In this document: positions 1 to 18,062 of the stretch, in pieces
How positions within the stretch are numbered: position 1 is the stretch's first letter
How the letters are laid out: every line of letters starts with the position of its first letter
IMG/VR virus record: IMGVR_UViG_3300021373_001484
Location: 1-22,464 of that record
DNA from: a virus
Direction: 5' to 3' (one strand)
DNA length: 22,464 bases
Notes under the pieces: generated by a model
Told to the model about the DNA's origin: nothing
Database searches by the model: none
The model's input: the letters and a program-made list of their open reading frames with translations, nothing else
Made by a program: the position numbers and the translations under genes

Positions 1-1
1 T

Positions 2-3490: not shown

Positions 3491-3496
3491 TAAATA
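3489..3496 (+). promoter_or_regulatory. T4-type late promoter motif (GATAAATA)
   Basis: GATAAATA overlaps the TGA stop of the preceding structural gene and lies about 18 nt before the start of the next gene. T4 and cyanomyovirus late promoters consist essentially of a TATAAATA or NATAAATA -10 element without a -35. The same element recurs before 8122 and 9678, which makes chance less likely. Confidence 0.6.
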
Positions 3497-3514
3497 ACAC
3501 AGTAGGACATAAAA

Positions 3515-4129
3515 ATGAATGATAATCTAAAAGAAAAAAATGGTATACTAATTAAAGGTCATATAAAGATATTTGATCCTGAGACTAAAGAAGTATACAT
3601 TGATAAAAATAATGCTATTCATTACGAAAACATGAGTATAGCGTTAGCCGACAGTGTCGGAAATAGAGGAAATGGCTGGATTTACGAAATGAGTTTTGGT
3701 AATGGCGGCACAAGTGTGGATCCTACAGGTATTATCACTTATCTAACTCCTAATTCTACAGGAACAAATGCAAGTTTGTATAATCAAACTTATACTAAAA
3801 TTGTAGATGACAATAGTGTAAACAACACTGATCCAGTAAGAAATAAAATTGAAACACGTCACGTAAGTGGTACAAATTACACCGACGTTCTAATAACTTG
3901 TTTGTTAGATTACGGTGAACCAAGTGGGCAGGATGCATTTGATACTGCAACAGATCAAAACAGTTTATATGTATTTGATGAACTAGGACTTAAAGGTTAT
4001 AATGCAAGCGGCACAGGAAATTTATTAACACACGTTGTATTCCATCCTGTACAGAAAAGTTTGAATAGGTTAATTCAAATTGATTATACTGTCAGAATCC
4101 AAAGTCTTGCTGGCACGGTTGGAGAATAA
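3515..4129 (+). CDS. Conserved T4-like marine phage virion-associated protein, function unknown
   Basis: This 204-residue protein starts at ATG 3515, about 7 nt after an AGGA, and a GATAAATA late motif lies just upstream. Recognisable motifs are the N-terminal 'IFDPETKEVYIDKNNAIHYENMS', split here as IFDPETKEVYIDKNN then AIHYENMS, a central MSFGNGGTS, a 'LLDYGEPSGQ' segment and the C-terminal HVVFHPVQKSLNRLIQIDYTV. From memory, this pattern belongs to a protein found beside fibre genes in T4-like cyanophages and related marine phages, with no assigned biochemical role. No signal peptide or membrane segment is visible. Its place between the large structural gene and three fibre genes, behind a late promoter, makes a particle component or tail-assembly factor likely. 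Confidence 0.7.
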   Translation: MNDNLKEKNGILIKGHIKIFDPETKEVYIDKNNAIHYENMSIALADSVGNRGNGWIYEMSFGNGGTSVDPTGIITYLTPNSTGTNASLYNQTYTKIVDDNSVNNTDPVRNKIETRHVSGTNYTDVLITCLLDYGEPSGQDAFDTATDQNSLYVFDELGLKGYNASGTGNLLTHVVFHPVQKSLNRLIQIDYTVRIQSLAGTVGE

Positions 4130-4132
4130 TAA

Positions 4133-6148
4133 ATGGCATATACAATAGCATATACTGACCAAGCTAACAAAGGTACAATAACTGTTGAAGATAATACTAT
4201 CAATACAGAGACATCATTAGGACTACCTGGTAGAAACACAACAGCATATGGTACAACTATTGCTACAAATTTTTTGCATTTGTTAGAAAATTTTGCAAGT
4301 GCTACAGAACCTTCAACACCTGTTGAAGGACAGTTATGGTATGACACAACACCCGGCGTAGAACAATTAAAGGTATATGATGGAACAAATTGGGTAGCAA
4401 GTGGCGGACTAAAAAAAGCAACTACTGCACCGCAAGCAGGGCAAAGTTTAATCGGAGATCTTTGGGTAGATACTGATAACCAACAATTATATTTGTTTAG
4501 TGGTTCAGGATGGGTATTAGTAGGTCCTAACTTTAGTGATGGATTAGTCACAGGTGCCACACCTGTAAGTATAATAGGAACAGATGATGTTACATATAAT
4601 GTTTTACAAATTGAAGTAGATGCCAAACCAGTTGCACTTATAACAACCCAAAGTTTTACACCAAAAGTTGTTATTCCAGGATTTAGCACACTTAATCCGG
4701 GATTCAATCTAAGTGCGAATAACATTACAGGTAGCGGCGTACCTAAATTTTATGGCACCGCAGAAAAAGCCGAGGGGTTAATTGTAAGTGGAAATACTAT
4801 CGCTGCTGGAAACTTTTTAAGAGGAGATGTAACAAGTACAACAGCATTTCCTATTAATGTCCAAAACAACACAGGAATAAACTACGGCATTAATGCTGAA
4901 ATGAATATTGGTGTTGAAGGAAATGCAGGTGTATTCCAACATAACATTGCTGGCTCATCAATGGACTTCAAAGTAAAAAATGACGGCATACTTAAAAATG
5001 TTTTAAGAATAGACAGTGATTTAAAAATTGGTATTAACAATGTTGCTCCAGATCAAGAATTAGATGTCACAGGCAACATACAAGCAAGCGGACTTATCAA
5101 CACAACATCAACTGTAAATAGTACAACATTCTCTAATGGTAGCATTAGGACTGCAGGTGGATTAGGTGTTGCACAAGATACAAATATAGGTGGGCAACTT
5201 AATGTAACCGGACTCACAACTACTAGAAATATAGTACCTAACGAAAACAATACAAAAGATATTGGTAGTACAACCTTAAAATATGCAAGAATGTATGCAA
5301 CAACTTTTATAGGCAATGTTACAGGTAACGTAAGTGGTACAGTTTCGGGTAGAGCAGGAAGTTCAGATAGATTAACAAGTGCAACAACATTTAGATTTGC
5401 TGGAGATATAACAGCTGATGACACTGTATTTGATGGACAGACAGGCGGCACACTAAAAGTATTTAACACAAGTATCAGTAACGACATTGTTGCTGGTAAA
5501 CCTAATGTGTTGTCTTCTCAAGCAGATGATGAATTATTAATAAACAGAACATCCGGCGACACTGGACTAAAAAAAATTAATAGAATAAATTTGTTTAGTG
5601 CAATACAGGGGTTAACACCAACAGGAACTGTAGTTCCTTTTGCCGGAGGCGCCGCGCCTATAGGTTGGTTATTATGTGACGGCACAGAAGTTTTAATAAG
5701 TGCTTACGGACAATTATATGATGTAATTGGCACTACATATAAAGCATCGCCTACTTCGGGATATTTTGCCCTACCGGATTTACGTGGTAGATTTTTATTA
5801 GGTGCTGATAATATGGGCGGAACAAGTGCTGATGTTGTTACATCAGGCTCTGCAGATGTAATTGGTGCAAAAGATGGTGCAGAACAAATTACAATAACAA
5901 CTGAAAACTTGCCTGAACACGAACACGATCTTAGAGGTGATAGCGGCGACCAATATTATGCGATTAGAGATGTAAGTGGCACACCAAATGATAATGAAGC
6001 AATTATTTATGATGCACCAACAGGAACAGGTGCTGGTCAAGCATATCCTGCAAGTGGTGGTATATTGACAGAAGATAGCGTAGGGCAACCAATAAGTGTT
6101 ATGAATCCGTTTATGACAATGAATTTCATAATTTATACTGGAGGGTAA
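4133..6148 (+). CDS. Tail fibre-like protein with phage tail-collar domain
   Basis: This 671-residue protein starts at ATG 4133 with GGAG at 4121-4124, 3 nt after the previous stop. Residues 1 to about 215 form the N-terminal module shared with the next two genes, with motifs NFLHLLENFA, GQLWYDT, LKVYDGTNW, GDLWVDT and WVLVGP. The middle is repetitive and shaft-like (LDVTGNIQASG, IGSTTLKYARMYATTF). Around residues 497-560 lies a phage tail-collar type domain: VVPFAGGAAPIGWLLCDG, then GYFALPDLRGRFLLGAD. The C-terminus MNPFMTMNFIIYTGG is typical of collar-domain fibres. Such proteins are trimeric adhesins at the phage tail. Whether it is a short or a side fibre cannot be told. No late promoter precedes it, so it is probably co-transcribed with 3515. 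Confidence 0.85.
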   Translation: MAYTIAYTDQANKGTITVEDNTINTETSLGLPGRNTTAYGTTIATNFLHLLENFASATEPSTPVEGQLWYDTTPGVEQLKVYDGTNWVASGGLKKATTAPQAGQSLIGDLWVDTDNQQLYLFSGSGWVLVGPNFSDGLVTGATPVSIIGTDDVTYNVLQIEVDAKPVALITTQSFTPKVVIPGFSTLNPGFNLSANNITGSGVPKFYGTAEKAEGLIVSGNTIAAGNFLRGDVTSTTAFPINVQNNTGINYGINAEMNIGVEGNAGVFQHNIAGSSMDFKVKNDGILKNVLRIDSDLKIGINNVAPDQELDVTGNIQASGLINTTSTVNSTTFSNGSIRTAGGLGVAQDTNIGGQLNVTGLTTTRNIVPNENNTKDIGSTTLKYARMYATTFIGNVTGNVSGTVSGRAGSSDRLTSATTFRFAGDITADDTVFDGQTGGTLKVFNTSISNDIVAGKPNVLSSQADDELLINRTSGDTGLKKINRINLFSAIQGLTPTGTVVPFAGGAAPIGWLLCDGTEVLISAYGQLYDVIGTTYKASPTSGYFALPDLRGRFLLGADNMGGTSADVVTSGSADVIGAKDGAEQITITTENLPEHEHDLRGDSGDQYYAIRDVSGTPNDNEAIIYDAPTGTGAGQAYPASGGILTEDSVGQPISVMNPFMTMNFIIYTGG

Positions 6149-6153
6149 GAGTA

Positions 6154-8085
6154 GTGAGTTATAGACTAAACAGAACAGATGGTGAATTACTAGTAGACTT
6201 AACTGACGGAATACTTGATTTAACTACTACTGACTTAACTTTAATCGGAAAAAATTACAAAGGCTTTGGTGAATTCCTTAATGAAAACTTTATTGCTTTA
6301 TTAGAAAATTTTGCATCAACATCTCAACCTACAAATCCTATGGTAGGTCAACTATGGTATGATAAACAAGATGCAAGGTTAAAAGTATATGATGGTACAG
6401 TCTTTAGACCTGCTACAGGTAGTGTTGTAAGCAGCACAAGACCTACCAATTTGAATGTAGGCGATATTTGGATTGATAACGAAGAAAATAAATTATATAT
6501 TTGGGATGGAAGTGATTTAACATTGGTCGGTCCTGAATATAGTGCAGGACAAGGCAAAACAGGATTTGAAGTTACAAGCCAATTAGATGCAACTGATGTA
6601 CAACGAACTATACTAAAACTATTTTTAGGCGGCACACTTGTAGGTATATTTTCACCAGAAACATTTTATATTTTACCTGAATATGCTATAGCAGGGTATC
6701 CACAAGTTGCAGGTGATTCACAAAATAGACAATTATTAGAAAAAGGATTCAATGTAGTAAACAGTGAATTTTTTTATAGAGGTACAGCAACTAGTGCTAA
6801 AGGACTTGTTGATGATGCAGGTATTGTTAGGTCTGCTGAAAACTTTATACCTACAGATGCAAACGGTGCAACTACAGGTAGTTTAAAAATTAAAAACAGT
6901 GCAGGACTAAGTGTAGGAGTCGGCGAAACAGAATATGCAATTTTAAAAATTGCCGGAACCACAGCAACATTAGAAACACAACAAAGTAACGGAGACCTTG
7001 CATTTAAGGTAAGATCAGGTAGTAGTTTCTTACCTGCGATGTATGTAGACACTAGTGAAAAATATATAGGCATTTGGAAATCCAATCCAGCATACAGCTT
7101 AGATGTAACTGGAGATGGAAGATTTACAAGCAACCTTACAGTTGGCGGTAACTTATTAGTAGAAGGAACAACTACACATTTAAACACAACAACATTAAGA
7201 GTTGAAGACAAAAATATAGAACTAGGCATACTAGATGACAGTACAGAAGCAACTGATGCACAGATAGATGGCGGCGGCATAATAGTAAGAAGTTTAAATG
7301 GAAGTAAAGATTGGACTTGGCAAGCAAGTACAAGTGCTTGGACAAGTAATCAAGATATAAACATTCAGTCTGGAGTTGATAATCCAGATCCAGCTTTAAT
7401 GGTAGACGGTGTGGATATTTTGACTAAGACAACACTTGGTAGCACAGTTAATAATGCGTTAGGACTTACTAGAGTAGGGACACTATCTGAACTCACTGTT
7501 GATGATATAAATATAAACTCGGCAACAATTACTAGAATAAACGGCACTGGACTTAATATTGTAGCTGGAGGAGACATTACTGTTGATAGTCAAAATATTA
7601 CAGGACTAGCAGAACCTTCTGCTGCTACAGATGCCGCAACAAAAAATTATGTTGATGTACAATTATATAGTAAAGATGTAATTATAAGTTTAGACGTAAC
7701 TGGATTGACTGACCCAGATCCAATTGGATCAGTAGACGGACCAAAAAATAGTATTGCTACATTGTTACAAAATATGCAATCAGCAAGTCAATATGAAACT
7801 GGAACTACTGCATATGTAATGGCAACTTCATATACTGGATCAACAGTATCTGGTATCACTGTTGACATCACAACTAGCCCGGATACATCTGGGGTGCTTA
7901 CTAAGTCTTCTATTGCAGTTGATAAAGACAATGTAAGCAGTTCTGAAACAGTAATTCAAGATATTAGTCAAAGTAATGATGCAAGCGGTGTTGCTACACT
8001 AACAGCTATAAGATATCTTTATGAATATACAGTATCTGCAAACACTTGGACATTTGTACGCAGGACTCTACAGACAGTAACATAA
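6154..8085 (+). CDS. Tail fibre-like protein, second of three with a shared N-terminal module
   Basis: The 643-residue protein begins with GTG 6154; GGAGGG at 6140-6145 sits 8 nt upstream and supports this non-ATG start. Residues 1 to about 215 are homologous to the N-termini of the flanking fibre genes (NENFIALLENFA, GQLWYD, LKVYDGT, GDIWIDN, LVGPEYSAG). The central part has fibre-type motifs YSLDVTGDGRFTSNLTVGG and LRVEDKNIELGILDDS, followed by KDWTWQAST and ATDAATKNYVD. The C-terminal quarter, rich in Ser and Thr, ends FVRRTLQTVT and has neither a collar nor an ADLAEKY domain, so the tip differs from both neighbours. It is probably another adhesin or fibre segment. It is 5 nt from the upstream stop and has no promoter of its own. 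Confidence 0.8.
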   Translation: MSYRLNRTDGELLVDLTDGILDLTTTDLTLIGKNYKGFGEFLNENFIALLENFASTSQPTNPMVGQLWYDKQDARLKVYDGTVFRPATGSVVSSTRPTNLNVGDIWIDNEENKLYIWDGSDLTLVGPEYSAGQGKTGFEVTSQLDATDVQRTILKLFLGGTLVGIFSPETFYILPEYAIAGYPQVAGDSQNRQLLEKGFNVVNSEFFYRGTATSAKGLVDDAGIVRSAENFIPTDANGATTGSLKIKNSAGLSVGVGETEYAILKIAGTTATLETQQSNGDLAFKVRSGSSFLPAMYVDTSEKYIGIWKSNPAYSLDVTGDGRFTSNLTVGGNLLVEGTTTHLNTTTLRVEDKNIELGILDDSTEATDAQIDGGGIIVRSLNGSKDWTWQASTSAWTSNQDINIQSGVDNPDPALMVDGVDILTKTTLGSTVNNALGLTRVGTLSELTVDDININSATITRINGTGLNIVAGGDITVDSQNITGLAEPSAATDAATKNYVDVQLYSKDVIISLDVTGLTDPDPIGSVDGPKNSIATLLQNMQSASQYETGTTAYVMATSYTGSTVSGITVDITTSPDTSGVLTKSSIAVDKDNVSSSETVIQDISQSNDASGVATLTAIRYLYEYTVSANTWTFVRRTLQTVT

Positions 8086-8095
8086 TGACAAAAGC

Positions 8096-8103
8096 GATAA
8101 ATA
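8096..8103 (+). promoter_or_regulatory. T4-type late promoter motif (GATAAATA)
   Basis: GATAAATA lies in the 36-nt gap between the second and third fibre genes, about 18 nt before ATG 8122. Element and spacing to the gene match those before 3515. No -35 element is visible, as expected for T4-type late promoters. Confidence 0.6.
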
Positions 8104-8121
8104 AACATATAGGGGTAATAC

Positions 8122-9639
8122 ATGTCATATACAATTAATAGATATAACAATGTTCAGCTAACAGTTGTAGAAGATGGAACTATAGATCAGACTACAGACT
8201 TAAAACTAGTAGGTAAAAACTATGCTGGATATGGAGAAATACAAAACGAGAACTTTGTATTTTTACTTGAAAATTTTGCTGGTGCAGCGCAACCGCCAAA
8301 AGCACTAAGTGGTCAAATTTGGTTCGATACTAGTAATAGTAAATTAAAATTTTATGATGGAACAAAATGGAGAACTACTGGTGGAGCTGAAGTAAGTGCA
8401 ACTACCCCTGCTGGACTTGCTTTAGGTGATTTTTGGTGGGACACAGGAAATGAACAACTATATGCATACAACGGCACATCATTTGTATTAGTAGGACCAC
8501 AAGGTGTGGGCGATACAGTCACACAATTCCAAAGTACTAACATTAGAGATAACGGCGGAACTTCTAGACCAGTTATAAAATCTATTATTAACGATGAAGT
8601 TATCCATATTATTAGTGCCCAAGAATTTACAATCGGCACAGAAGATGCATCTGACTATCCTGGATTTGATGTTGTAAGACAAGGGTTAACCCTTAAAAAT
8701 ACTATTAACTCAACAGGTGGTGTTACATCAACAGGACATAGATTCTGGGGTACAGCTTCAAATGCATTAAAATTAAACGGTATAGACGCAAGTAATTATG
8801 TTGTGTCTACTCCTGGATCAGCAACAGAATTTACTACAGTAGTTGAATTTTCAGATTTAGGATTAACTGTAGGTAACACAAATGACTTAGCAATTAAGAT
8901 TGTAGACGACAATAAAGGATTAATTGCAAACGAGCAAGGAACACAAACATACTTCCAAGTTCAAAACTCAAGTGCTGCACAGAAGATGCCTTTGAGATTA
9001 ACAGCGGAAGCAATATTACCAGGATACAGTAATGTAGCTACTTGGACAGGTGTTGAAACTGTAAATATTGGTTCAGCATCAGCAGGCTTTAGCACAGTGT
9101 ATGCAACTACTTTTAGCGGAACTGCAACAAATTCACAAAAATTAGAAGTTGGCGGAGTTTCAAGAAGCGCAAGTACAAGTGCTACAGCAAATACCGTTGC
9201 AGGTAGAGATGGTGCAGGTGATTTGACTGCAAATGTGTTTAGAGGAACAGCAACATCTGCACAGTTTGCTGACTTAGCTGAAAAATATACATCTGATAAA
9301 GATTACGAGCCAGGTACAGTATTAGTATTTGGTGGAGAAGCAGAAGTTACAGAATGTAAAATATTCTGCGATCAAAGATTAGCAGGTGTTGTATCAACAA
9401 ATCCAGCACATTTGATGAACGAAGGAATTGACGGAGTAGCGATTGCACTTAAAGGTCGTGTACCATGTAAAGTAGAAGGTGTAGTAAGAAAAGGTGACAT
9501 TTTAGTTACTGGGCCAGTACCTGGAACAGCAACAGCACTCAAATCTGATAGTGCTATGCCTAGCCCTTATTGTGTAGTAGGAAAAAGTTTAGAGGACAGC
9601 GACGATGCTGGAGTCAAGATGATTGAAGTTGCAGTATAA
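8122..9639 (+). CDS. Tail fibre-like protein with 'ADLAEKY' C-terminal domain
   Basis: The 505-residue protein starts at ATG 8122 with AGGGG at 8111-8115. Residues 1 to about 215 are the same module as in the two preceding fibres (NENFVFLLENFA, GQIWFDT, LKFYDGTKW, GDFWWDT, FVLVGPQ). A shaft segment follows, with INIGSA-like VNIGSASAGFSTVYATTF. From about residue 382 a compact domain starts FADLAEKYTSDKDYEPGT and continues VLVFGG, RLAGVVSTNPAHLMN, VALKGRVP-type and GDILVTGPVPGTA motifs. This C-terminal domain is frequent in marine phage fibres. It resembles self-cleaving intramolecular chaperone or G2-type peptidase domains, but I cannot confirm autoproteolysis from sequence alone. It is preceded by its own late promoter motif. 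Confidence 0.8.
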   Translation: MSYTINRYNNVQLTVVEDGTIDQTTDLKLVGKNYAGYGEIQNENFVFLLENFAGAAQPPKALSGQIWFDTSNSKLKFYDGTKWRTTGGAEVSATTPAGLALGDFWWDTGNEQLYAYNGTSFVLVGPQGVGDTVTQFQSTNIRDNGGTSRPVIKSIINDEVIHIISAQEFTIGTEDASDYPGFDVVRQGLTLKNTINSTGGVTSTGHRFWGTASNALKLNGIDASNYVVSTPGSATEFTTVVEFSDLGLTVGNTNDLAIKIVDDNKGLIANEQGTQTYFQVQNSSAAQKMPLRLTAEAILPGYSNVATWTGVETVNIGSASAGFSTVYATTFSGTATNSQKLEVGGVSRSASTSATANTVAGRDGAGDLTANVFRGTATSAQFADLAEKYTSDKDYEPGTVLVFGGEAEVTECKIFCDQRLAGVVSTNPAHLMNEGIDGVAIALKGRVPCKVEGVVRKGDILVTGPVPGTATALKSDSAMPSPYCVVGKSLEDSDDAGVKMIEVAV

Positions 9640-9644
9640 ACACG

Positions 9645-9652
9645 CATAAATA
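9645..9652 (+). promoter_or_regulatory. T4-type late promoter motif (CATAAATA)
   Basis: CATAAATA lies in the 38-nt gap before ATG 9678, about 25 nt upstream of the start. It fits the NATAAATA consensus of cyanomyovirus late promoters and matches the elements before 3515 and 8122 at seven of eight positions. Confidence 0.55.
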
Positions 9653-9677
9653 CATGCAGAGCTAAAGGAAAGATATT

Positions 9678-10619
9678 ATGGCAGTAAGCGTAGGCGACAG
9701 TATTACAGCAGCACAATATAATGGTTTGCAAAGCAGAGTTGCAACTATTATGGGTACTGGCTCAGGAACCAACGGATATGGACAAAGTTTAGCCAGTTCG
9801 CAGGTTAGTGCCGGCTCGGTAATTACAGCTGCTCAATTTGATAACTTACGTACAGATATAAACAAAGCAAATAATCATCAAAGTGGTGCAAATGCGTCTA
9901 TAGGTGATATTGCAGTAGGACAGATTATAGGAGCCGATGCTAGTGGCACCAGTTTAGGTGCGTTAAATGTAACTACAGAAGGTTTTAACGATTATGATGT
10001 AGCAGTTGGTGTAATTGAAACAAATAAATTATTGATTGATGCAGGAAATAGTTCTGTTGAAGCTGCAACAAGTAGTCAAAGAACAACTCCGTGGGGCGGT
10101 GGCGGCGGAGGCACAGTAGATCATATCTTCACAGTAACTTTTGCTAGTGCAGATGCACGTAGACACTTTTTTAACTCCGGCGGCGAAATAAGATTTAGTG
10201 CAACTAGAACTGGCGGCAGTGGTTCTAAGGATACTGATTGGACAAACATGTTGACTGCTATGGGAACAATCAAAATGAATTATACCACCACAACCGCAAC
10301 TGGAACAGGTACTGCACAGTCAATAGGAAATGGAGATTTAACCGGAACCTATCAAACAATTTTCGAAAAGAGTGGTTCTGGACTATATGCAGAGAACCTT
10401 TACAGGATTAGAGCTAGACAAGATAGCACATCAGTTTTAAGATTTGAAATTCAGTTCCAAGACAATGATGAAGGAGACGACCAGGGCGGAGCAGGTTCAA
10501 CAGGACCTGTAGATGAAAACGTTACTGGAACACTTACAAGCACTATACAACAGCTTAGAGCAACAGGATCTAACGTGTCAGTTACAACTCCTACATATAC
10601 AAATACAAGCAACTTATAA
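9678..10619 (+). CDS. Conserved virion structural protein of T4-like marine phages (fibre-associated)
   Basis: This 313-residue protein starts at ATG 9678 with AAAGGAA ending 7 nt upstream. The N-terminus has a duplicated motif, VGDSITAAQYNGL (about residues 5-17) and AGSVITAAQFDNL (about 47-59). A WGGGGGG linker lies near residues 139-145. Beyond it is a beta-rich domain with FTVTFASADARRHFFNSGG, EIRFSATRTGGSGS, MGTIKMNYT, YAENLYRIRA and the terminal VDENVTGTLTSTIQQLRATG. I recognise this layout from cyanophage and pelagiphage virion proteins encoded beside fibre genes. Its role is not established; distal fibre or tail decoration fits the context and the late promoter. It is the last gene of the virion block. 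Confidence 0.75.
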   Translation: MAVSVGDSITAAQYNGLQSRVATIMGTGSGTNGYGQSLASSQVSAGSVITAAQFDNLRTDINKANNHQSGANASIGDIAVGQIIGADASGTSLGALNVTTEGFNDYDVAVGVIETNKLLIDAGNSSVEAATSSQRTTPWGGGGGGTVDHIFTVTFASADARRHFFNSGGEIRFSATRTGGSGSKDTDWTNMLTAMGTIKMNYTTTTATGTGTAQSIGNGDLTGTYQTIFEKSGSGLYAENLYRIRARQDSTSVLRFEIQFQDNDEGDDQGGAGSTGPVDENVTGTLTSTIQQLRATGSNVSVTTPTYTNTSNL

Positions 10620-10630
10620 TCAAATAATAC

Positions 10631-10659
10631 TTGACAAACTAGCCGTTTTAGTATATACT
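10631..10659 (+). promoter_or_regulatory. Near-consensus sigma-70 promoter for the accessory cassette
   Basis: TTGACA at 10631-10636 is followed by a 17-bp spacer and TATACT at 10654-10659, one mismatch from the TATAAT consensus. It lies in the 65-bp gap between the virion block and ATG 10685, so a transcript would begin near 10666. This is the host-type (early) promoter architecture, unlike the NATAAATA late elements upstream. All following genes are oriented away from it with almost no gaps. Confidence 0.75.
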
Positions 10660-10671
10660 ATAACAGTATAC
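10650..10671. promoter_or_regulatory. Possible operator: palindrome over the -10 plus downstream half-site
   Basis: AGTATATACT (10650-10659) is a perfect 10-bp palindrome covering the -10 hexamer. AGTATAC (10665-10671) repeats its half-site over the predicted start of transcription. This could bind a repressor or simply reflect AT-rich promoter sequence. No regulator gene is present in the window. Confidence 0.25.
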
Positions 10672-10684
10672 ACAAGGAGATCCT

Positions 10685-11032
10685 ATGGACGAACGACTAG
10701 AAAAAGCTCTAGAATTTTCTAATTTTTTAGAAACACAAAATAATCAAAAGCGTATTTTTCTCAAACAATATAAAGATAATCTTATTCATTATGCTTACGG
10801 ACATAAGTTTACTGCATCTACACAATTAATAAATTTATTGTCTGTTCTTATAGAAACTGATCAAGAACAGATAGTTATCTTAGATGACAATGAAACTCCG
10901 GTAACAATCGACAATCCTGAAGAATTTATGAGAGATGTCGTAGGTGTGTATATATTTGCTAGTAGGAAATATGCTAAAGACTATGATGATATAAAAAAGA
11001 ATCGGTCTGTTGAAGGTTTAATACATATATGA
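10685..11032 (+). CDS. Small conserved phage protein, function unknown
   Basis: This 115-residue protein starts at ATG 10685; AAGGAG at 10674-10679 with 5-nt spacing is one of the best ribosome sites in the window. The N-terminal half is charged and helical (MDERLEKALEFSNFLETQNN then QKRIFLKQYKDN). A QIVILDDNETPVTIDNPEEF stretch follows, then a C-terminal helix. No Cys pairs, signal peptide or membrane segment was found. I recall similar short proteins beginning MDERLEKALEFSNF beside fibre genes in T4-like marine phages, always without assigned function. It is the first gene after the sigma-70 promoter and overlaps the next gene by ATGA, so it is probably made early and is translationally coupled. 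The overlapping frame at 10513-10722 is a shadow. Confidence 0.75.
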   Translation: MDERLEKALEFSNFLETQNNQKRIFLKQYKDNLIHYAYGHKFTASTQLINLLSVLIETDQEQIVILDDNETPVTIDNPEEFMRDVVGVYIFASRKYAKDYDDIKKNRSVEGLIHI

Positions 11033-11877
11033 CAAACGGAGTAGTATTATTTGCTTTTAACAATTCAGATATAGATTATATAAAACAAGCGATATATTGT
11101 GCAAAGCGAGTAAAAAAATATCTAGGACTGCCAGTACAGCTTATAACAGACTCTGCTGGCTATATGGAGGATACTTATCCTTTCTATAACAAATATATCG
11201 ATCAAGTTACATTTTCACCTTCTCCAAAAAGCACAACAAAAAAATTTTATGACGGTATACATACTAATTATAAATTAGAATGGAAAAATGGCGCACGTGA
11301 CAGTGCTTTTGATCTTTCCATTTTTGATAAAACACTTGTTATCGATACAGATTTATTAATTAGTAACGACAAACTTTTAAAGTGTTTTGATTTTCCTGAT
11401 GATTTTATGATTGCAAAGGATTATAATCTAGTCAATCAAAATAAATTACATCCTGATTTAGATAGAATAAGCGATACTACAATACCTATGTATTGGGCAA
11501 CTATATTATATTTTACAAAAAGTAAAACATCTGAAACAATATTTAATTTTGTTCAACATATCAAAGAAAATTATAATTATTATAGATTAATTTATAGGAT
11601 TACACAAAGACAGTTCAGGAATGATTATGCCTTCAGTATAGCAATTCATACAATGCGAGGATTTGTAGAAGATTGCAACTGGCCAAGTGCTATTCCTAGT
11701 GATATGTGGGTTTCTTCTGATAGAGATATTCTATTAGATGTAAACGATAATACAATTAAATTATTAACGCATAAAGACAATGATTATACTGCTGTAAAAA
11801 TAAAAGATGCTACAACGCATGTAATGAATAAATTTAGTTTGAACTCTTTTATAGACAAGGAGTTTACAAATGAGTAA
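11029..11877 (+). CDS. Putative GT-A-type glycosyltransferase (DTD motif)
   Basis: The 282-residue protein starts at ATG 11029, overlapping the previous gene by 4 nt. The N-terminus VVLFAFNNSDIDYIKQA with a following IYCAKRVKKYLGLPVQLIT is the first strand and helix of a nucleotide-sugar binding fold. The motif TLVIDTDLLISND holds D106-x-D108, the metal and nucleotide-sugar ligand of GT-A enzymes. The C-terminal half has no recognised acceptor-domain motif. It is a paralogue of the next gene: both begin NGVxLxAxNNxDxxYxKQA and have a DxD after a VI/VFD strand. Donor and acceptor are unknown. It could be an inactive relative, but the acidic motif is intact. No membrane segment is seen, so it probably acts in the cytoplasm. 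Confidence 0.65.
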   Translation: MTNGVVLFAFNNSDIDYIKQAIYCAKRVKKYLGLPVQLITDSAGYMEDTYPFYNKYIDQVTFSPSPKSTTKKFYDGIHTNYKLEWKNGARDSAFDLSIFDKTLVIDTDLLISNDKLLKCFDFPDDFMIAKDYNLVNQNKLHPDLDRISDTTIPMYWATILYFTKSKTSETIFNFVQHIKENYNYYRLIYRITQRQFRNDYAFSIAIHTMRGFVEDCNWPSAIPSDMWVSSDRDILLDVNDNTIKLLTHKDNDYTAVKIKDATTHVMNKFSLNSFIDKEFTNE

Positions 11878-12676
11878 CGGTGTTTGTTTAGTAGCACAAA
11901 ATAATGCTGATACAAATTATGTAAAACAGGCATATGCATTAGCATTAAGTATACTTGCTTATTCGCCTAGTACAAACATAAGTTTAGTTACTAACGACGA
12001 AGTTCCTTATGATGTATTTGATAAAATTATTCCAATACCATGGAGTGATATGTCCTACAATAACTGGAAGATTGAAAACCGCTGGAAAGTTTATCATGTG
12101 ACTCCGTACAGAAATACAATAGTATTTGATGTAGATATGCTAGTGCTTGAAAATATTGATTATATTTGGAATCATTATCACGATCTTGTTTTTACTAGTA
12201 ATGTAAAAACATATAGAAATGAATTAGTAACAAATAGATATTATAGAAAAACATTTGATGCTAACAACTTGCCTAATGTTTATACAGGAATGTACCAATT
12301 TTCAAAGTGTAATAACACCCATGCATTTTTTGTATTGTTAGATTTAATAATGAGGCACTGGAAAATTTTTTATAAAAAGTACGCACCTAACAAATTTCAA
12401 GATTGGTGTAGTGTTGATGTTTGTGCAGCAATAGCTTTAAAAATATTAGACAATCAAGGAGACACGTTGCATAACGATAGCTTACTGTCTTTTACACATA
12501 TGAAACCTTATGTGCAAAATTTAACTTCTACACCTACAAACTGGACCGATATTCTTCCTGTAGATTTAGATAATACTGTTATTATAAATGGTTACAAACA
12601 ATCAGGAATTTTACATTATGTAGAAGACGAATTTTTGACAAATGATGTGTTAAAATGGTTAGAGGAAAGAGTATAA
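11870..12676 (+). CDS. Putative GT-A-type glycosyltransferase (DVD motif), paralogue of previous gene
   Basis: The 268-residue protein starts at ATG 11870, with AAGGAG at 11857-11862 inside the end of the previous gene (8-nt overlap). MSNGVCLVAQNNADTNYVKQ followed by a helix and ISLVTND forms the Rossmann-like start. NTIVFDVDMLVLEN carries D87-V-D89, the expected metal and nucleotide-sugar site. The segment after it, with NVYTGMYQFSK and a Trp-rich helix near KFQDWCSVDVCAA, resembles the acceptor half of GT8-like proteins. Tandem duplication with the 11029 gene is likely, but the two are diverged enough to have different specificities. Substrate is unknown. The cassette context suggests glycan building or glycosylation of a phage or host component. 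Confidence 0.65.
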   Translation: MSNGVCLVAQNNADTNYVKQAYALALSILAYSPSTNISLVTNDEVPYDVFDKIIPIPWSDMSYNNWKIENRWKVYHVTPYRNTIVFDVDMLVLENIDYIWNHYHDLVFTSNVKTYRNELVTNRYYRKTFDANNLPNVYTGMYQFSKCNNTHAFFVLLDLIMRHWKIFYKKYAPNKFQDWCSVDVCAAIALKILDNQGDTLHNDSLLSFTHMKPYVQNLTSTPTNWTDILPVDLDNTVIINGYKQSGILHYVEDEFLTNDVLKWLEERV

Positions 12677-13230
12677 TGTTTTACATATATTTTGACATAG
12701 ACAGCAAACATATTTTAGGCATCACCAACGAACTAAACAACTCTAATGAAAATTATATAATCAAATCTTACGAGGATGTAGAAAAATTCCTTACAGGCGA
12801 ATTAAATTTTAATGAATACAAACTACAAGAAGATGTTAGAGTAAAAGGAACTTTCCATATTGTTTCTAAAGATTACGAACCTACAATAGATTACGAAAAT
12901 CCTTATGTAACAATAAGTAGAACACCAAAACATCAAGAAAACAGTATACAATTTTTAAAAAGTAATTCAAATTTTATTGTTAATAATTTTTTAGATAACG
13001 AAACATGCAAAGAACTTAACAGCGGAACAGATTACATAAAAGAATATTATATTGTAAAAAGCAGTAATAGATTTGTTTTATTAGATAGTTTTCAGATTAA
13101 CTTAAAGGAATTTTCTACACAAAAACAACTAGTGATAAGTACAAACATTACAGACGAAGATTTTTATATTCTTACGTATAACAGTCATATAGAACATGTA
13201 TATAACGGAGAACAAATTGAAGATTATTGA
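12676..13230 (+). CDS. Unknown 184-residue protein in accessory cassette
   Basis: I chose ATG 12676 over the in-frame ATG 12655: AGAGGAAAG at 12661-12669 is well placed for 12676, and the preceding gene's TAA shares one base with it (TAATG). The protein begins MFYIYFDIDSKHILGITNE, a short beta hairpin of the kind used by small phage proteins. A lysine- and asparagine-rich middle and acidic C-terminus (YNGEQIEDY) follow. There is one Cys and no signal peptide, membrane helix or catalytic motif that I recognise. It lies between the two glycosyltransferase-like genes and the first protein of a second DxD family, and its coupled start suggests co-expression. I cannot assign a function. Confidence 0.65.
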   Translation: MFYIYFDIDSKHILGITNELNNSNENYIIKSYEDVEKFLTGELNFNEYKLQEDVRVKGTFHIVSKDYEPTIDYENPYVTISRTPKHQENSIQFLKSNSNFIVNNFLDNETCKELNSGTDYIKEYYIVKSSNRFVLLDSFQINLKEFSTQKQLVISTNITDEDFYILTYNSHIEHVYNGEQIEDY

Positions 13231-14134
13231 TTACGATATTATCTACCTGTCATATGATGAGCCTAATGCTGAAAAGAATTATGCAGATTTACTTACAAAA
13301 GTTCCGTGGGCAAAGCGTGTGCATGGTGTAGAAGGTTCAGATGCTGCACACAAAGCCTGTGCAAAATTAAGCGAAACAGATAGATTTATTACTGTTGACG
13401 GTGATAATCAAATTAATCCAGCATTTATATTGCAAGAAATAGATTTTGAACAACATGCCGATTTGGAACACAGTGTAATTAGCTGGTGTGGCAAAAATAT
13501 TATTAATGGACTTATGTACGGCAACGGCGGGCTTAAATGCTGGCCTAAAGAATATGTGTTAAACATGCGTACACATGAAAATGCTGATCCAGATAATTTA
13601 CAAGCTCAAGTAGACTTTTGCTGGGATTTAAAGTACATACAACAGAATAGTTGTTATAGCAATGTGTACAATAATGAAACACCGCAACAGGCCTGGAGAG
13701 CAGGTTTCCGTGAAGGTGTCAAAATGGCACTTGATCAAGGTGTAAAACCTACACAAGAAGATTTTCTTAAAGGCCATTGGAAAAACTTACATAGACTATG
13801 GATATGGCTCATGGTAGGTGCAGATGTTGAAAACGGTCTTTGGGCTATATATGGTGCTCGCGAAGGTCTGTATAAAACAATGTGTTCTGATTGGGACTAT
13901 GTACAAGTACGTGACTTTGAATACCTTAACGAAATGTGGGAACAAGATGTAAGTCATATTAAACCGATATATTTGCACGATGAAGTAAGCGATATAGGTG
14001 AAAAGATAAAACAAGAGTTAGATATACCTATAGCACTTAACCCTTTAGATGCTGAACAAAGTAAATTTTTTAAAACAGTATATCAAAACCCTAGCCGTAA
14101 CCCTCAGCAACAATTTGTGATTGATCCAGAATGA
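13217..14134 (+). CDS. Putative GT-A-like protein, second family (DGD motif)
   Basis: I place the start at TTG 13217, since CGGAG ends 6 nt upstream; ATG 13196 would add seven residues and lengthen the overlap with the previous gene to 35 nt. The protein (305 residues) begins MKIIDYDIIYLSYDEPNAEK, continues VPWAKRVHGVEGSDAAH and has FITVDGDNQI with D61-G-D63, a DxD-like site at the end of a hydrophobic strand. LMYGNGGLKCWPKE and AWRAGFREGVKMAL motifs follow. All of these recur in the gene at 15353, so the two are paralogues. The fold is probably a nucleotide-sugar transferase type, but activity is inferred only. It overlaps the following radical SAM gene by ATGA. Confidence 0.6.
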   Translation: MKIIDYDIIYLSYDEPNAEKNYADLLTKVPWAKRVHGVEGSDAAHKACAKLSETDRFITVDGDNQINPAFILQEIDFEQHADLEHSVISWCGKNIINGLMYGNGGLKCWPKEYVLNMRTHENADPDNLQAQVDFCWDLKYIQQNSCYSNVYNNETPQQAWRAGFREGVKMALDQGVKPTQEDFLKGHWKNLHRLWIWLMVGADVENGLWAIYGAREGLYKTMCSDWDYVQVRDFEYLNEMWEQDVSHIKPIYLHDEVSDIGEKIKQELDIPIALNPLDAEQSKFFKTVYQNPSRNPQQQFVIDPE

Positions 14135-15369
14135 AAAAAGATACAATATGTGCAATACCGTGGATGCATTTAAATTTTGAACCTAATGGAAAAGTTGTTC
14201 CTTGTTGTTTGACATCTACACATAATTATTTTGCAGGTGACCTAAATACAGATTCTATTGAAGAAATTTGGAATAGTGATAATATGAAGTCACTTCGTTT
14301 ACAAATGATTAATGGAGAGCAACCTAAAATATGCAGTACTTGTTTTAATAAAGAAAGTGTAACAGGACTAAGCGGACGTATACATCATAATAAAGCGTTT
14401 CCTCAAGTGCTTGAGCGTATTCCAGAAATTACTGACGAAACTGGCCATGTTTCAGAAATGAATTTACTTTACTGGGATTTTAGATTTAGCAACTTGTGTA
14501 ATCTTAAATGTAGAAGTTGTGGACCAAGGTACAGCAGTGCTTGGGTACCAGATGCAAAAAAATTAGGACTAATTTCAGATCAAGACAAAGTATGGAACAT
14601 TGATTCTGTCGATGATGCAAATAATTTTGATTTTCTTACTGAACAAATTGGTGTAGTTGAAAAGATTTATTTTGCTGGAGGCGAGCCGTTGATGATGGAC
14701 GAGCATTGGCAAATACTTGAGCTGTTAGATAAAAACAAAAGACATGATGTAAAGATATGTTATAATACAAATTGTACTACATTTACATACAAAAATAAAG
14801 ATGTATTTGATTACTGGAAGAATTGGAATGCTGACAAGTTAGAAATATGGCCCAGCATAGATGAAATAGGTTCCAGAGCAGAACTTATACGTTCTGGAAC
14901 TGTTTGGAATAGGGTAGAAAATAACTTAAAAAGATTAACAACCTTAGATAATACATTGATAAAACCTGGCATAACAGTAGGTGCTTGGAACGTATTCAGA
15001 CTTCCTGAAATAATAACACATCTAGTAGACATTGGTGTTATTAACAGTAAAAGACATTATCAAAACTTTTTCCTTAATTTAATAGAAATGCCATTACATT
15101 ATAATATAACTATACTACCAGATAAATTTAAAAACAAGACTAGGAAACGTCTTATAAAATTTATAGGCAGTTTTAATAAAAAGCATAATACAGATATTAG
15201 AGAGCATTTTACTCAGATACTATCTGAGCTATCAAAAGATCATAATCCCAAGGCCGCACATAGGTTTGTAACAATGACAGCAAAAGTAGATAGTGTAAGA
15301 AAAGAACAGTTTTATGATGTTGTTCCTGAATTAAAAATGCTACAAAAGGCATATGCACCAGATGTATGA
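14131..15369 (+). CDS. Twitch-domain radical SAM protein (1st of six radical SAM genes)
   Basis: This 412-residue protein starts at ATG 14131, overlapping the upstream stop by 4 nt. Residues 1-80 are an N-terminal twitch/SPASM-like segment: C7 in CAIPWMHLNFEPNG, C25-C26 in VVPCCLTS, IEEIWNSDNMKSLRLQM, and C68/C71 in ICSTCFNKE, likely ligands of an auxiliary 4Fe-4S cluster. The core carries C123-x3-C127-x2-C130 (LCNLKCRSCGP), the SAM-binding cluster site, and GGEP at 183-186, the SAM amino-group contact. All essential motifs are intact, so S-adenosylmethionine cleavage is likely. The substrate is unknown. NCBI-type naming would be 'twitch domain-containing radical SAM protein'. It sits between two paralogous DxD proteins. 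Confidence 0.85.
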   Translation: MKKDTICAIPWMHLNFEPNGKVVPCCLTSTHNYFAGDLNTDSIEEIWNSDNMKSLRLQMINGEQPKICSTCFNKESVTGLSGRIHHNKAFPQVLERIPEITDETGHVSEMNLLYWDFRFSNLCNLKCRSCGPRYSSAWVPDAKKLGLISDQDKVWNIDSVDDANNFDFLTEQIGVVEKIYFAGGEPLMMDEHWQILELLDKNKRHDVKICYNTNCTTFTYKNKDVFDYWKNWNADKLEIWPSIDEIGSRAELIRSGTVWNRVENNLKRLTTLDNTLIKPGITVGAWNVFRLPEIITHLVDIGVINSKRHYQNFFLNLIEMPLHYNITILPDKFKNKTRKRLIKFIGSFNKKHNTDIREHFTQILSELSKDHNPKAAHRFVTMTAKVDSVRKEQFYDVVPELKMLQKAYAPDV

Positions 15370-16033
15370 TATAGCATTTATAAGTTACAATGAAGTTGAA
15401 GCAGATAAAAATTGGAAAATATTAAAAGATAATTTTCCTTATGCAAAACGCACGAATGGCGTGAAAGGAATACATCAGGCTCATATTGAAGCAGCAAAAA
15501 AAGCCTGTACTAGAATGTTTTATATTGTTGATGCAGATGCTGTTATTATAAATAATTTTGATTTTAGTTATGTACCTCCAAAATACGAATTAGATCATGT
15601 GCATGTTTGGCGAAGCCAAAATCCAATCAACGACTTAGTATATGGATACGGTGGTGTAAAACTATTTCCAAGAACCGAAACTATAAACATGGATACTAAT
15701 AAACCTGATATGACTACAAGTATTAGTGATAAGTTTAAATTAATGCAGGATATATCAAATATAACAGCATTTAATGTAGATGAATTTAGTACATGGCGCA
15801 GTGCATTTAGAGAATGTGCTAAACTTGCAAGCAAAACAATAGATAGACAAAACGAGGAGGAAACTAATGCAAGACTTAAAACTTGGACAACCGTGGGACA
15901 CGATAGACCATTTGGCAAATATGCTTTGGCAGGCGCTGCCGCTGGTATGGAGTTTGGCCTTTCTAGCGGGGCTGACCTTCGGTTAATAAACGACTTTAAC
16001 TGGCTTAAGGAGAAATACAATGCAGATTGCTGA
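15353..16033 (+). CDS. Putative GT-A-like protein, second family (DAD motif), paralogue of the 13217 gene
   Basis: A 226-residue protein from ATG 15353; ATG 15362 (MYDIAFIS) is an equally possible start, and the AAAAGG at 15344-15349 does not decide between them. Shared with the 13217 gene are YDIAFISYNE, PYAKRTNGVKGIHQAH, FYIVDADAVI (D60-A-D62), YGYGGVKLFP, WRSAFRECAKLA and a C-terminal VGHD..GKYALAGAAAG segment matching VGADVENGLWAIYGAREG. It is shorter by about 80 residues, mainly at the C-terminus. The DxD site is intact; a nucleotide-sugar transferase role is inferred. Its last part is overlapped in another frame by a small ORF with a strong ribosome site (15867-15986). The gene overlaps both neighbours. 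Confidence 0.6.
   Translation: MHQMYDIAFISYNEVEADKNWKILKDNFPYAKRTNGVKGIHQAHIEAAKKACTRMFYIVDADAVIINNFDFSYVPPKYELDHVHVWRSQNPINDLVYGYGGVKLFPRTETINMDTNKPDMTTSISDKFKLMQDISNITAFNVDEFSTWRSAFRECAKLASKTIDRQNEEETNARLKTWTTVGHDRPFGKYALAGAAAGMEFGLSSGADLRLINDFNWLKEKYNADC
15855..15860 (+). promoter_or_regulatory. Strong internal Shine-Dalgarno (AGGAGG)
   Basis: A full AGGAGG lies inside the 15353 gene, 6 nt before an out-of-frame ATG at 15867. No annotated gene start in the window has so complete an anti-16S match. In the main frame it encodes consecutive glutamates (NEEET), so coincidence through GAG codons is the alternative. Confidence 0.4.
15867..15986 (+). CDS. Candidate nested small membrane protein, 39 residues, out of frame
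   Basis: ATG 15867 opens a 39-codon frame, +1 relative to the host gene at 15353, ending at TAA 15984-15986. The peptide begins MQDLKLGQPWDTIDHLANM and ends LWQALPLVWSLAFLAGLTFG. The second half is one uninterrupted hydrophobic stretch of about 20 residues without charge, a plausible single membrane span with a cytoplasmic-type N-terminus. AGGAGG with 6-nt spacing precedes the start. Lysis accessory or membrane-targeting peptides would look like this, but there is no homology evidence. The main frame is constrained here too, as it matches the 13217 paralogue, so this would be an overprinted gene or a chance ORF. Confidence 0.35.
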   Translation: MQDLKLGQPWDTIDHLANMLWQALPLVWSLAFLAGLTFG

Positions 16034-16787
16034 AATACTAGATAGATTAGAATTACTATACCCGGACAACTCTATCTTTAGTGATCTAAGAAAAACCTTA
16101 TTAAGTCAAGATAAGTTTGCATTGTTTAGAATTATACAAGGATTTACAGGCAGTCAATTAATTGAAGGTATGCGTAAGTATAAAGACGATGACAGTTTTA
16201 ATGCAGACTGTTTTAGTCGAGGACAACTAGAAAGCAAACTATGGTTGTTAACCGAATTAGGAAAACTTAATGTAGAACTAGGCACAGTGTTCTTATGTGC
16301 AGGATGGTATGCTACACTTGCTACAATGTTATTTGAAAGTGACATCAAAATAGATAAAGTTAGATCTTTCGACATTGATGAGTCATGTGTAGACATTGCT
16401 GAAACATTCAATAAGCCGTGGTTTGTAGATGAATGGCGTTTTAAAAGTATTACACAAAATATTATGGATATTAATTACAATCAACATGTTTGGCAGTATT
16501 GGAGTAATGCTAATAATAGAATGAGCTACCCTATTACTGATAGTCCAGATACTATTATAAACACAAGTTGTGAACACATTGAAAACTTTCAAGAATGGTA
16601 TGATCTAATACCAGATGGCAAGTTAGTTGTATTGCAAAGCAATAATTATTATGAAATTGAAGAACACGTTAATTGTGTCAGAAGTATAGAAGAGTTTGCA
16701 GTAAAAGCACCTATGGATAATATTTTATACAGTGGCGAATTAGATCTGCCCAAGTACAAGAGGTTTATGTTAATTGGATTTAAGTAA
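16020..16787 (+). CDS. Class I SAM-dependent methyltransferase
   Basis: This 255-residue protein starts at ATG 16020 with AAGGAG just upstream inside the end of the previous gene (14-nt overlap). A Rossmann-type methyltransferase is indicated by TVFLCAGWYATLATML (about residues 89-104), in the place of the glycine-rich SAM loop; SFDIDESCVDIAETFN (116-131), with the acidic residue that binds the SAM ribose; and DTIINTSCEHIENFQEWYDL (177-196), the strand 4 region, then GKLVVLQSNNY. The glycine loop is shortened to LCAGWYA, as in several phage and environmental relatives. The acceptor is unknown. Next to radical SAM and sugar-transfer genes, methylation of a sugar, acid or peptide in the same pathway is the natural inference. 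Confidence 0.75.
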   Translation: MQIAEILDRLELLYPDNSIFSDLRKTLLSQDKFALFRIIQGFTGSQLIEGMRKYKDDDSFNADCFSRGQLESKLWLLTELGKLNVELGTVFLCAGWYATLATMLFESDIKIDKVRSFDIDESCVDIAETFNKPWFVDEWRFKSITQNIMDINYNQHVWQYWSNANNRMSYPITDSPDTIINTSCEHIENFQEWYDLIPDGKLVVLQSNNYYEIEEHVNCVRSIEEFAVKAPMDNILYSGELDLPKYKRFMLIGFK

Positions 16788-16998
16788 TTTAACATTAAGA
16801 GAAATGCAAACTGAAAGTGCAAGAGCACTGAGCACTATACAAGCGACTAATAATAACATACACCAATTTAACAAACAAGCACACCACAATAGTGAAAATT
16901 GGTATAAGGCTGTAATAGAGTGGTATGTAGAACAATATGGCGACTTACCTAGTCGTACAGGGCCTGGCAAAGAAATAAAGTTAGTATTAGATGTATAA
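16774..16998 (+). CDS. Small 74-residue helical protein, function unknown
   Basis: The frame begins with TTG 16774 (AAGAGG at 16758-16763, 10 nt upstream) and overlaps the methyltransferase end by 14 nt; ATG 16804 is an alternative without good ribosome site. The protein is mostly amphipathic helix (LTLREMQTESARALSTIQAT), with a NSENWYKAVIEWYVEQYGDL segment and a polar tail (SRTGPGKEIKLVLDV). It has no Cys. It overlaps the following radical SAM/SPASM gene by 8 nt, so it is very probably translated with it. It could be an accessory or recognition subunit for that enzyme, or a peptide substrate; neither is shown by the sequence. Confidence 0.6.
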   Translation: MDLSNLTLREMQTESARALSTIQATNNNIHQFNKQAHHNSENWYKAVIEWYVEQYGDLPSRTGPGKEIKLVLDV

Positions 16999-18055
16999 TT
17001 ATCAAGATATAAAAACAATACACCTTGAGGTAACACAAAACTGTCAAGCAAGTTGTCCTATGTGCGATCGTAATATGAATGGAGAAGGTATTAATCCTCA
17101 TATAAATTTAGATGAACTATCACTGCAAGACTGTAAAGACATATTTACTATTGCATTTATAAAACAATTAGACACAATGTATATGTGTGGTAACTTAGGT
17201 GATCCTATTGTTGCTCGAGACACACTAGAAATATTCAAATACTTTAGACAACACAATCCTAACATGTGGTTAAGCATGAATACAAATGGAGGCGCAAAGA
17301 ATGAAGAATGGTGGAGAGATTTGGCAACAACTTTTGGTCGCATGGGTGCTGTTATCTTTAGCGTGGACGGTCTTAGGGATACTAATCACATTTATCGGCA
17401 GGGTGTTGTTTGGGACAATGTAGAACGTAACATGCGAGCATTTATAGATGCTGGAGGCAGAGCACGTTGGGATTATCTAATATTCGAACATAACCAGCAC
17501 CAAGTTGACGAAGCTGAAGCACTTGCAAATGCATGGGGATGCGAAAAATTTATGAAAAAGAAAACAGGAAGATTCATTGACACAAATTCAAATAAAAAAG
17601 AAAAGCATCAGGCCAAAGACCGCAAAGGCAAAGATACAGCCGAGCTCAAAAAGCCAGACGCAAAGTACCAGAACAAAGCACTTACCAAGCAAGAGGCTAT
17701 CCTCAAGAAATACGGTAGCATGGACGCATATTATGACGCGGCTCCTATTATTTGTAAAGTTAAAAAAGAAAACAGTTTGTTTATTACAGCAGAAGGACTA
17801 GCATTACCCTGTTGTTGGACAGCTGGACGTATGTACAAGTGGTGGCATAAAGATCCTAAAGTAGAACAGATATGGGACTTTGTTGATAAAAAGGCATTAG
17901 ATGCTCGTAACGGATTAAGCAAAGTTTTTGATACAGGAATATTTGATCGTATACAAGAAAGTTGGGCAAAGCCTAGTTGCAGAGATGGTAAATTAAAAGT
18001 CTGTGCTACAAAGTGTGGATCCGAGTTCGATCCCTTTGCAGAGCAGTTTAAATAA
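16991..18055 (+). CDS. Radical SAM protein with C-terminal SPASM-like domain (2nd of six)
   Basis: The 354-residue protein starts at ATG 16991. The core comes first: EVTQNCQASCPMCDRN gives C18-x3-C22-x2-C25 for the SAM cluster. Instead of a GGE motif it has MCGNLGDP (residues 65-72). FSVDGLRDTNHIYRQG (123-138) is shared with the gene at 21353. The C-terminal part has C255, C274-C275 (LALPCCWTAG), C330, C338 and C342 (KVCATKCG), the spacing expected of a SPASM-type auxiliary cluster. Between core and SPASM lies a Lys-rich insert (about 199-240) with higher GC and different codon choice. SPASM enzymes usually act on peptides or proteins, but this branch is uncharacterised. It overlaps the 74-residue gene upstream. 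Confidence 0.85.
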   Translation: MYNYQDIKTIHLEVTQNCQASCPMCDRNMNGEGINPHINLDELSLQDCKDIFTIAFIKQLDTMYMCGNLGDPIVARDTLEIFKYFRQHNPNMWLSMNTNGGAKNEEWWRDLATTFGRMGAVIFSVDGLRDTNHIYRQGVVWDNVERNMRAFIDAGGRARWDYLIFEHNQHQVDEAEALANAWGCEKFMKKKTGRFIDTNSNKKEKHQAKDRKGKDTAELKKPDAKYQNKALTKQEAILKKYGSMDAYYDAAPIICKVKKENSLFITAEGLALPCCWTAGRMYKWWHKDPKVEQIWDFVDKKALDARNGLSKVFDTGIFDRIQESWAKPSCRDGKLKVCATKCGSEFDPFAEQFK

Positions 18056-18062
18056 GTACATT

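Follow-up and report, generated by a model that had tools for sequence, protein, structure and literature searches.

In bacteriophage T4, early promoters of the host type (−35/−10) are accompanied by a late class (gp55, TATAAATA), and the fibre chaperone 57A is made early. A study of T4-like cyanophages treated sigma-70 promoters as the early class and TATAAAT as the late one (PMC3037559). A promoter may also be part of an RNA structure. According to PMC3014915, the ribosome site of T4 gene e and I-TevI is hidden by a hairpin whose 5′ part includes a late promoter, and only RNA started at this inner promoter is translated well; soc and 49 are mentioned there alongside the leader hairpins of e and I-TevI. 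As to fibre chaperones, gp27 of the Alteromonas phage V22, which contains DUF4376 and is encoded directly behind the fibre gene, is described as experimentally shown to act in this way (PMC7289586, PMC10579305).

Here we analyzed a stretch of 22,464 nt of an IMG/VR virus record (IMGVR_UViG_3300021373_001484, positions 1 to 22,464; hereafter the window), in which a block of fibre genes is followed on the same strand by a cassette of other genes. Our main reading, to which we give a probability of about 0.7, is that a conserved promoter of the host sigma-70 type heads an operon of overlapping genes, the first of which probably encodes a DUF4376-type chaperone, and that this operon is transcribed before the late genes; a less certain layer of control by a hairpin is added to it. 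The host sigma-70-type polymerase would transcribe the operon ahead of the switch to a gp55-like late sigma factor, from a putative early promoter placed directly behind the late fibre genes.

A conserved sigma-70-type promoter in front of the cassette

The junction between the fibre block and the cassette contains the following features:

10631–10636, + strand: −35 element TTGACA (from the sequence; TTGAC is kept in the family)
10654–10659, + strand: −10 element TATACT (from the sequence; 17-bp spacer to −35)
10666, + strand: expected RNA start of the sigma-70-type promoter (from the geometry, 7 nt past −10)
10674–10679, + strand: Shine-Dalgarno sequence AAGGAG (from the sequence)
10685–11032, + strand: 115-aa gene at the head of the cassette, with a DUF4376-like predicted fold, probable fibre chaperone (from the model and the neighbourhood)

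The promoter TTGACA-17-TATACT, which had been proposed in front of the cassette, was confirmed exactly at 10631–10659. It matches the sigma-70 hexamer consensus at 11 of 12 positions with 17 bp between the hexamers, and its −10 element ends 25 nt before the start codon (ATG 10685). Such a site would be used early, by the host enzyme, with a start near 10666.

The motif alone is weak evidence, because an equal site is also present within an ORF. By chance, 0.07 occurrences of TTGACW-N17-TATAMT would be expected in the window, and two were observed; the second TTGACA-17-TATACT lies at 1284–1312 (+ strand), inside ORF 2–3490, and is probably a chance match. We therefore rejected motif statistics alone as proof. 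A looser promoter scan of positions 1–20000 gave fewer sites than in shuffled sequences (67 vs 89), and ATAAATA is likewise rarer over the whole window than in shuffles (8 vs 15.9). Judged in this way, the evidence for both motifs lies in their placement and conservation, not in their number.

Relatives of the 115-aa protein were found in 539 stretches of viral contigs, of which 80 were kept. In the 81 upstream regions (these 80 and the window) the 17-bp spacer and TATAMT were present without exception, and TTGACW in 78. Among 30 representatives with less than 80% identity both hexamers were nearly invariant and the spacer was far more variable, except that all of them (30/30) have a T two bases ahead of the −10 hexamer. 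This T is followed by A in 22 and by G in 8, a pattern that does not stand out at the other sigma-70 sites listed.

Two further scans widened the set to 116 distinct upstream regions with 81 representatives below 80% identity (L303, whose upstream DNA is missing, was dropped from this comparison). The best-scoring site contained TTGAC in 105 of the 116 regions, TATAMT in 101 and a 17-bp spacer in 107. Nine regions failed the promoter filter. Six of them (L213, L222, L226, L251, L332, L333) have no recognisable promoter site upstream of the 115-aa gene, and L338 has TTGACA with a 15-bp spacer. The other two, L254 and L255, were mis-scored in this count, their promoters being too near the ATG for the filter: upstream of position 3001 they carry TTGACC-17-TATACT/TATAAT ending 6–7 nt before the ATG, and their transcripts would be leaderless or nearly so. 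On these comparisons, it is conservation that decides that the promoter site is real.

Two promoter classes in the window and in related genomes

All genes of the window lie on one strand. The fibre block upstream of the cassette contains elements of another class:

3489–3496, + strand: late-type promoter element GATAAATA before ORF 3515–4129 (motif scan; relatives likewise)
8096–8103, + strand: late-type promoter element GATAAATA before ORF 8122–9639 (motif scan and relatives)
9645–9652, + strand: late-type promoter element CATAAATA before ORF 9678–10619 (motif scan)
9678–10619, + strand: last fibre/virion gene of the late block (distant homologue of PA5oct gp360, 26% identity)

These elements begin 26–33 nt ahead of ORFs 3515, 8122 and 9678, and (G/C)ATAAATA is present in every gap of the fibre block longer than 5 nt. 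ORFs 4133 and 6154 begin 4–6 nt past the preceding stop codon and lack a late element. Thus, the original prediction that the genes up to 10619 are preceded by late elements holds for three of the five ORFs starting between 3515 and 9678, and not for these two. In five relatives (G001, G002, G003, G005, G006) a gene of 193–205 aa at the place matching ORF 3515 has the same late element. As to the last gene of the block, its homologue gp360 is marked ESI-MS/MS in the PA5oct record, like other genes of that virion block. The promoter class changes at the junction of the fibre block and the cassette, as had been predicted for 10620–10684, and the sigma-70 site found there is kept across a large group of phages.

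In 12 long contigs of relatives, some of them near-duplicates, the pattern TTGAC-N17..19-TATAMT was matched 100 times, compared with 11 matches for the reversed pattern. Seven contigs were examined in full, with genes called by simple scripts of our own, as in the gene-order counts of the loci. On the virion strand the 115-aa gene is the only one with a sigma-70 motif at −90 to −8, and this is so in all seven; three more virion-strand sites lie outside this interval, 5–6 nt before a gene (G001, G003, G006). Late elements were found in the block preceding the 115-aa gene in six of the seven contigs (G011 is cut). On the virion strand of the seven contigs, 81 genes are preceded by a gap of 25 nt or more, and 23 of them have ATAAATA at −60 to −8; the element is found on the other strand too, before 34 of 147 genes.

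A late sigma factor gene was identified in the relative G004, not in the 22-kb window itself; the protein is gp55-like (phrog_12791, E 9.8e-79; phrog_234, E 7.8e-22). This gene is one of those preceded by a sigma-70 motif on the other strand of G004, together with genes for an SbcD-like protein, GTP cyclohydrolase I and a DUF2201 protein; G002 and G001 have motifs on that strand as well, before an AAA ATPase gene and a small regulator-like gene, respectively. Among 78 loci of the late-sigma gene (two of 80 were dropped for short upstream DNA) the promoter has a 17-bp spacer in 77 and TTGACA or TTGACT in all; in eight of the 80 loci, three of them among the 42 representatives, the assigned start was wrong by one codon. 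Since a late sigma factor must precede late transcription, its sigma-70 promoter class should work early. From the promoter class shared with this gene, expression of the cassette before late transcription would be the best reading.

Some further features of the sigma-70 sites should be mentioned. At the late-sigma promoters (L123–L202), ATTTAG stands directly before TTGAC in 39 of 42 representatives in otherwise variable surroundings, and the leaders are less structured than their shuffles (mean z −0.58). Another sigma-70 site followed by a leader hairpin (L097:9283–9325, from G004) precedes a gene of 227–229 aa, the GTP cyclohydrolase I gene in G004. The hairpin exists in two versions, GACATCCTCGTC in G001, G003, G004 and G005 and GGCAATCCACTGCC in G002, G006 and G011, each followed by TCGGAG. 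It had no Rfam match in the stretches scanned and is possibly a small leader regulator. At the gathering score, no Rfam family was detected in the window and four stretches of relatives.

The cassette and its first gene

Downstream of the 115-aa gene the cassette continues as follows:

11029–11877, + strand: conserved gene of about 282 aa, overlapping the 115-aa gene by 4 nt (ORFs and gene order; no profile match)
11870–12676, + strand: conserved gene of about 270 aa, glycogenin-like glycosyltransferase (profile match)
12676–13230, + strand: cassette gene of about 190 aa (ORFs and gene order)
13196–14134, + strand: cassette gene of about 300 aa (ORFs and gene order)
14131–15369, + strand: radical SAM/SPASM protein (domain match)

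The cassette had been regarded as accessory. In this group that description does not apply to its first genes, which are conserved in order and overlap. A second gene of 265–300 aa overlaps the first by 1–23 nt in all 77 representatives whose locus reaches it, a third gene of 255–300 aa is present in 72, and most representatives reaching further have a gene of about 190 aa and then one of about 300 aa. The protein of the third gene matches glycogenin in a profile comparison (E 7e-5); for the product of about 282 aa the PDB gave no match at E ≤ 1. Behind the glycosyltransferase-like genes a putative run of radical SAM/SPASM-type proteins extends over 14131–22464 of the window, up to the ORFs at 21353 and 22270; a Pfam scan of ORFs starting before 21353 revealed radical SAM and/or SPASM domains in those at 14131, 16991, 18003 and 20035.

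Sequence searches with the 115-aa protein in Pfam, PHROGs and PDB gave nothing usable, and no relatives were found in 50,697 phage records. Its AlphaFold model (pLDDT 90.8) has helices and strands in the order H-E-E-H-E-E-H. A fold search with this model in the PDB gave no match at E ≤ 0.001. The best match in BFVD was an unnamed phage protein (E 4.5e-5), and DUF4376 is named in 16 of the 50 best BFVD matches listed, each of them weak (E 0.006–0.4, TMq 0.40–0.68). V22 gp27, modelled as a yardstick, has the same order of helices and strands in its DUF4376 part and shares with the 115-aa model 29 of the 50 best fold matches listed for each. At the level of sequence, Pfam PF14301 (DUF4376) was matched in none of nine contigs at E ≤ 1 and was not among the 25 families listed, out of 41, for the 46 members; an hhalign comparison of the 115-aa profile with six relatives of V22 gp27 was not significant (E 0.16). 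As modelled, the protein is thus DUF4376-like and not a member of the Pfam family.

Its position is constant. The upstream ORF belongs to one blastp cluster in 77 of the 80 representatives having such an ORF, and 37–72 nt separate it from the ATG of the 115-aa gene (80 representatives). From this position and the predicted fold, a fibre chaperone appears to be the likeliest function of the 115-aa protein. In this way a small gene found in 539 stretches of viral contigs is tied to the DUF4376 fibre-chaperone fold.

These data bear on the function of the cassette as a whole. It had been proposed that the early promoter argues against a simple late role in virion assembly and that the target of the cassette as a whole is the host or precursor pools early in infection. 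The first part is not supported: since position and fold point to a fibre chaperone, the early promoter does not oppose virion assembly, and promoter class alone should not serve as an argument against a virion role. The second part, for the cassette as a whole, we regard as rather doubtful. The promoter class speaks for it, as do the glycosyltransferase-like and radical SAM proteins encoded downstream, and early action of the cassette on precursors would be possible; yet in fold and position the first gene resembles that of a fibre chaperone, and an early promoter does not fix the site at which a product acts.

A predicted hairpin over the −10 region and the ribosome site

The promoter of the window overlaps a further element:

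10651–10659 with 10665–10673, + strand: imperfect dyad, left arm including the −10 element (8 pairs, one A.C mismatch)

As a hairpin this dyad can exist only in RNA started upstream; the hairpin is significant in the family, not in the window. It was tested in 72 of the 81 representatives, the nine failing the promoter filter being left out. On average, opening of the Shine-Dalgarno sequence cost 4.15 kcal/mol in read-through RNA vs 1.75 in RNA from the own promoter. When 5′ arms were exchanged among representatives, the cost was 2.78 (sd 0.14), and the own value was reached in none of 10000 permutations; when the arms of the five nearest relatives were put in its place, the own arm proved better in 46 of 72 cases (p = 3.5e-4). 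The region −18..+3 behaved similarly, with 9.27 in read-through RNA, 3.31 in own RNA and 6.52 after exchange (0/10000), and here the own arm was superior to those of the five nearest relatives in 53 of 72 (p = 5e-8). The late-sigma promoters, used as a control, showed no effect of arm exchange (the Shine-Dalgarno test covered 41 of 42 representatives). Their leaders are also costlier to open in the longer RNA (3.63 vs 2.13 for −18..+3), so that the difference between read-through and own RNA is owed partly to the longer RNA alone.

The hairpin surpassed its own shuffles at p ≤ 0.05 in 34 of 72 representatives, compared with two of 42 late-sigma controls, and in the remaining 38 it was no better than they were. 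The hairpin of the window is ordinary (z 0.03, p 0.43 against its own shuffles) and has no own-arm advantage, with 33 of 71 foreign arms doing equally well. A gapless, position-by-position comparison of relatives revealed no excess of covariation over slid controls (both-sides fraction 0.094 vs 0.030–0.100; kept fraction 0.34 vs 0.29–0.44). In 16 of the 72 representatives the stem is stronger than 95% of the exchanged ones. All 16 stems overlap the Shine-Dalgarno sequence, 12 of them take in part of the −10 hexamer with the 5′ arm, and their loops measure 4–21 nt; L206, L209 and L319 are examples of such leaders.

We tentatively propose, at somewhat less than even odds, that the hairpin acts as an inverted form of the T4 gene e switch, with a host-type promoter in its 5′ arm, and that it permits translation of early RNA but not of late read-through RNA, which would gate the chain of overlapping genes. 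In many relatives the predicted 3′ arm reaches the Shine-Dalgarno sequence and the 5′ arm is the −10 region. RNA from the promoter's own start would lack the 5′ arm and leave the ribosome site open, while late read-through RNA from the fibre promoters would carry the whole hairpin and be poorly translated; the element at 9645–9652 is a likely source of such RNA. Because the next genes overlap start-to-stop, late damping could extend to the whole operon.

Two other functions of the structure were considered, both as alternatives to this proposed gate. The first is a translational operator worked by a protein or a small molecule and unrelated to read-through, which we consider unlikely. It finds support in the six representatives that have no recognisable promoter (L213, L222, L226, L251, L332, L333): in each of them the start region is still predicted to fold (−7.4 to −18.0 kcal/mol, a range computed without shuffle control), an observation for which a gate acting purely on read-through does not account. 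However, 12 of the 16 strongest 5′ arms include part of the −10 element and thus lie upstream of the expected start, so that the promoter's own RNA cannot form the structure, and the arm sequences differ widely. The second is a DNA operator at the −10 dyad, through which a phage repressor would shut the promoter at the late switch. The dyad covers the −10 element and the start, the classic place for an operator, and own arms fit better also in a strand-symmetric score (the value was reached in 0 of 200 exchanges). An operator would have a fixed half-site spacing, whereas the loops of the 16 strongest stems vary as described above and all these stems lie at the Shine-Dalgarno sequence; moreover, internal G.T mismatches are raised (21, exchange mean 12.9) and A.C mismatches are not (7, mean 7.0), which points to RNA, although the G.T/A.C ratio itself is not decisive. 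The DNA operator is therefore quite improbable in our view. Finally, the sigma-70-like site might be idle and the cassette expressed late only, from RNA that reads through from 9645 or from a point further upstream. In favour of this, no terminator-like site is among those listed by the scan between 9645 and 10685, the genes share one strand and an equal motif lies within the ORF at 1284. We nevertheless regard it as very improbable, because an idle site would decay, whereas here both hexamers and their 17-bp distance persist in spite of drift in the spacer and flanks, and ATAAATA occurs within 100 nt upstream of the 115-aa gene in only one of 116 regions.

Comparison with known systems

The phage group described here has the same two promoter classes as T4 and, like T4, its genomes encode a gp55-like late sigma factor and carry ATAAATA late elements. 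The difference is that here the sigma-70 promoter, known from sequence alone, is embedded on the late strand right behind the fibre genes. For a gene placed within a late block, this class of site offers a clue to timing that can be read directly from the DNA.

The best matches of the late sigma factor in the phage collection are of the type of the Pseudomonas phages PA5oct and Paride (Arenbergviridae, Wroclawvirus; 44.6–46.1% identity). In both phages the homologue of the 9678–10619 gene ends the virion block; in the 12.7-kb stretches compared, the genes that come next are read from the opposite strand and the block is not followed by such a cassette. These cultured Arenbergviridae (L349, Paride; L350, PA5oct), with a related virion block and no cassette, offer a natural comparison for the junction.

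The 115-aa gene resembles those of the DUF4376 chaperones V22 gp27 and A5 gp9, as far as the sources describe them, in lying directly downstream of a fibre gene. Unlike V22 gp27, the 115-aa protein is stand-alone, without the N-terminal part and without a Pfam DUF4376 match, and its gene has an early-type promoter of its own.

As to the hairpin, literature searches yielded T4 reviews and, among the results listed, no reverse case in which the hairpin of an early promoter silences late read-through. In T4 gene e and I-TevI, according to the account cited above, the silenced long RNA is early and the inner promoter is late, whereas the present group has an inner promoter of the sigma-70 type, and its long RNA is predicted to be late. 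If the proposed gate is true, these marine phages, a widespread and uncultured group, also apply the T4 rule that a promoter within a hairpin frees the message, but with early and late exchanged.
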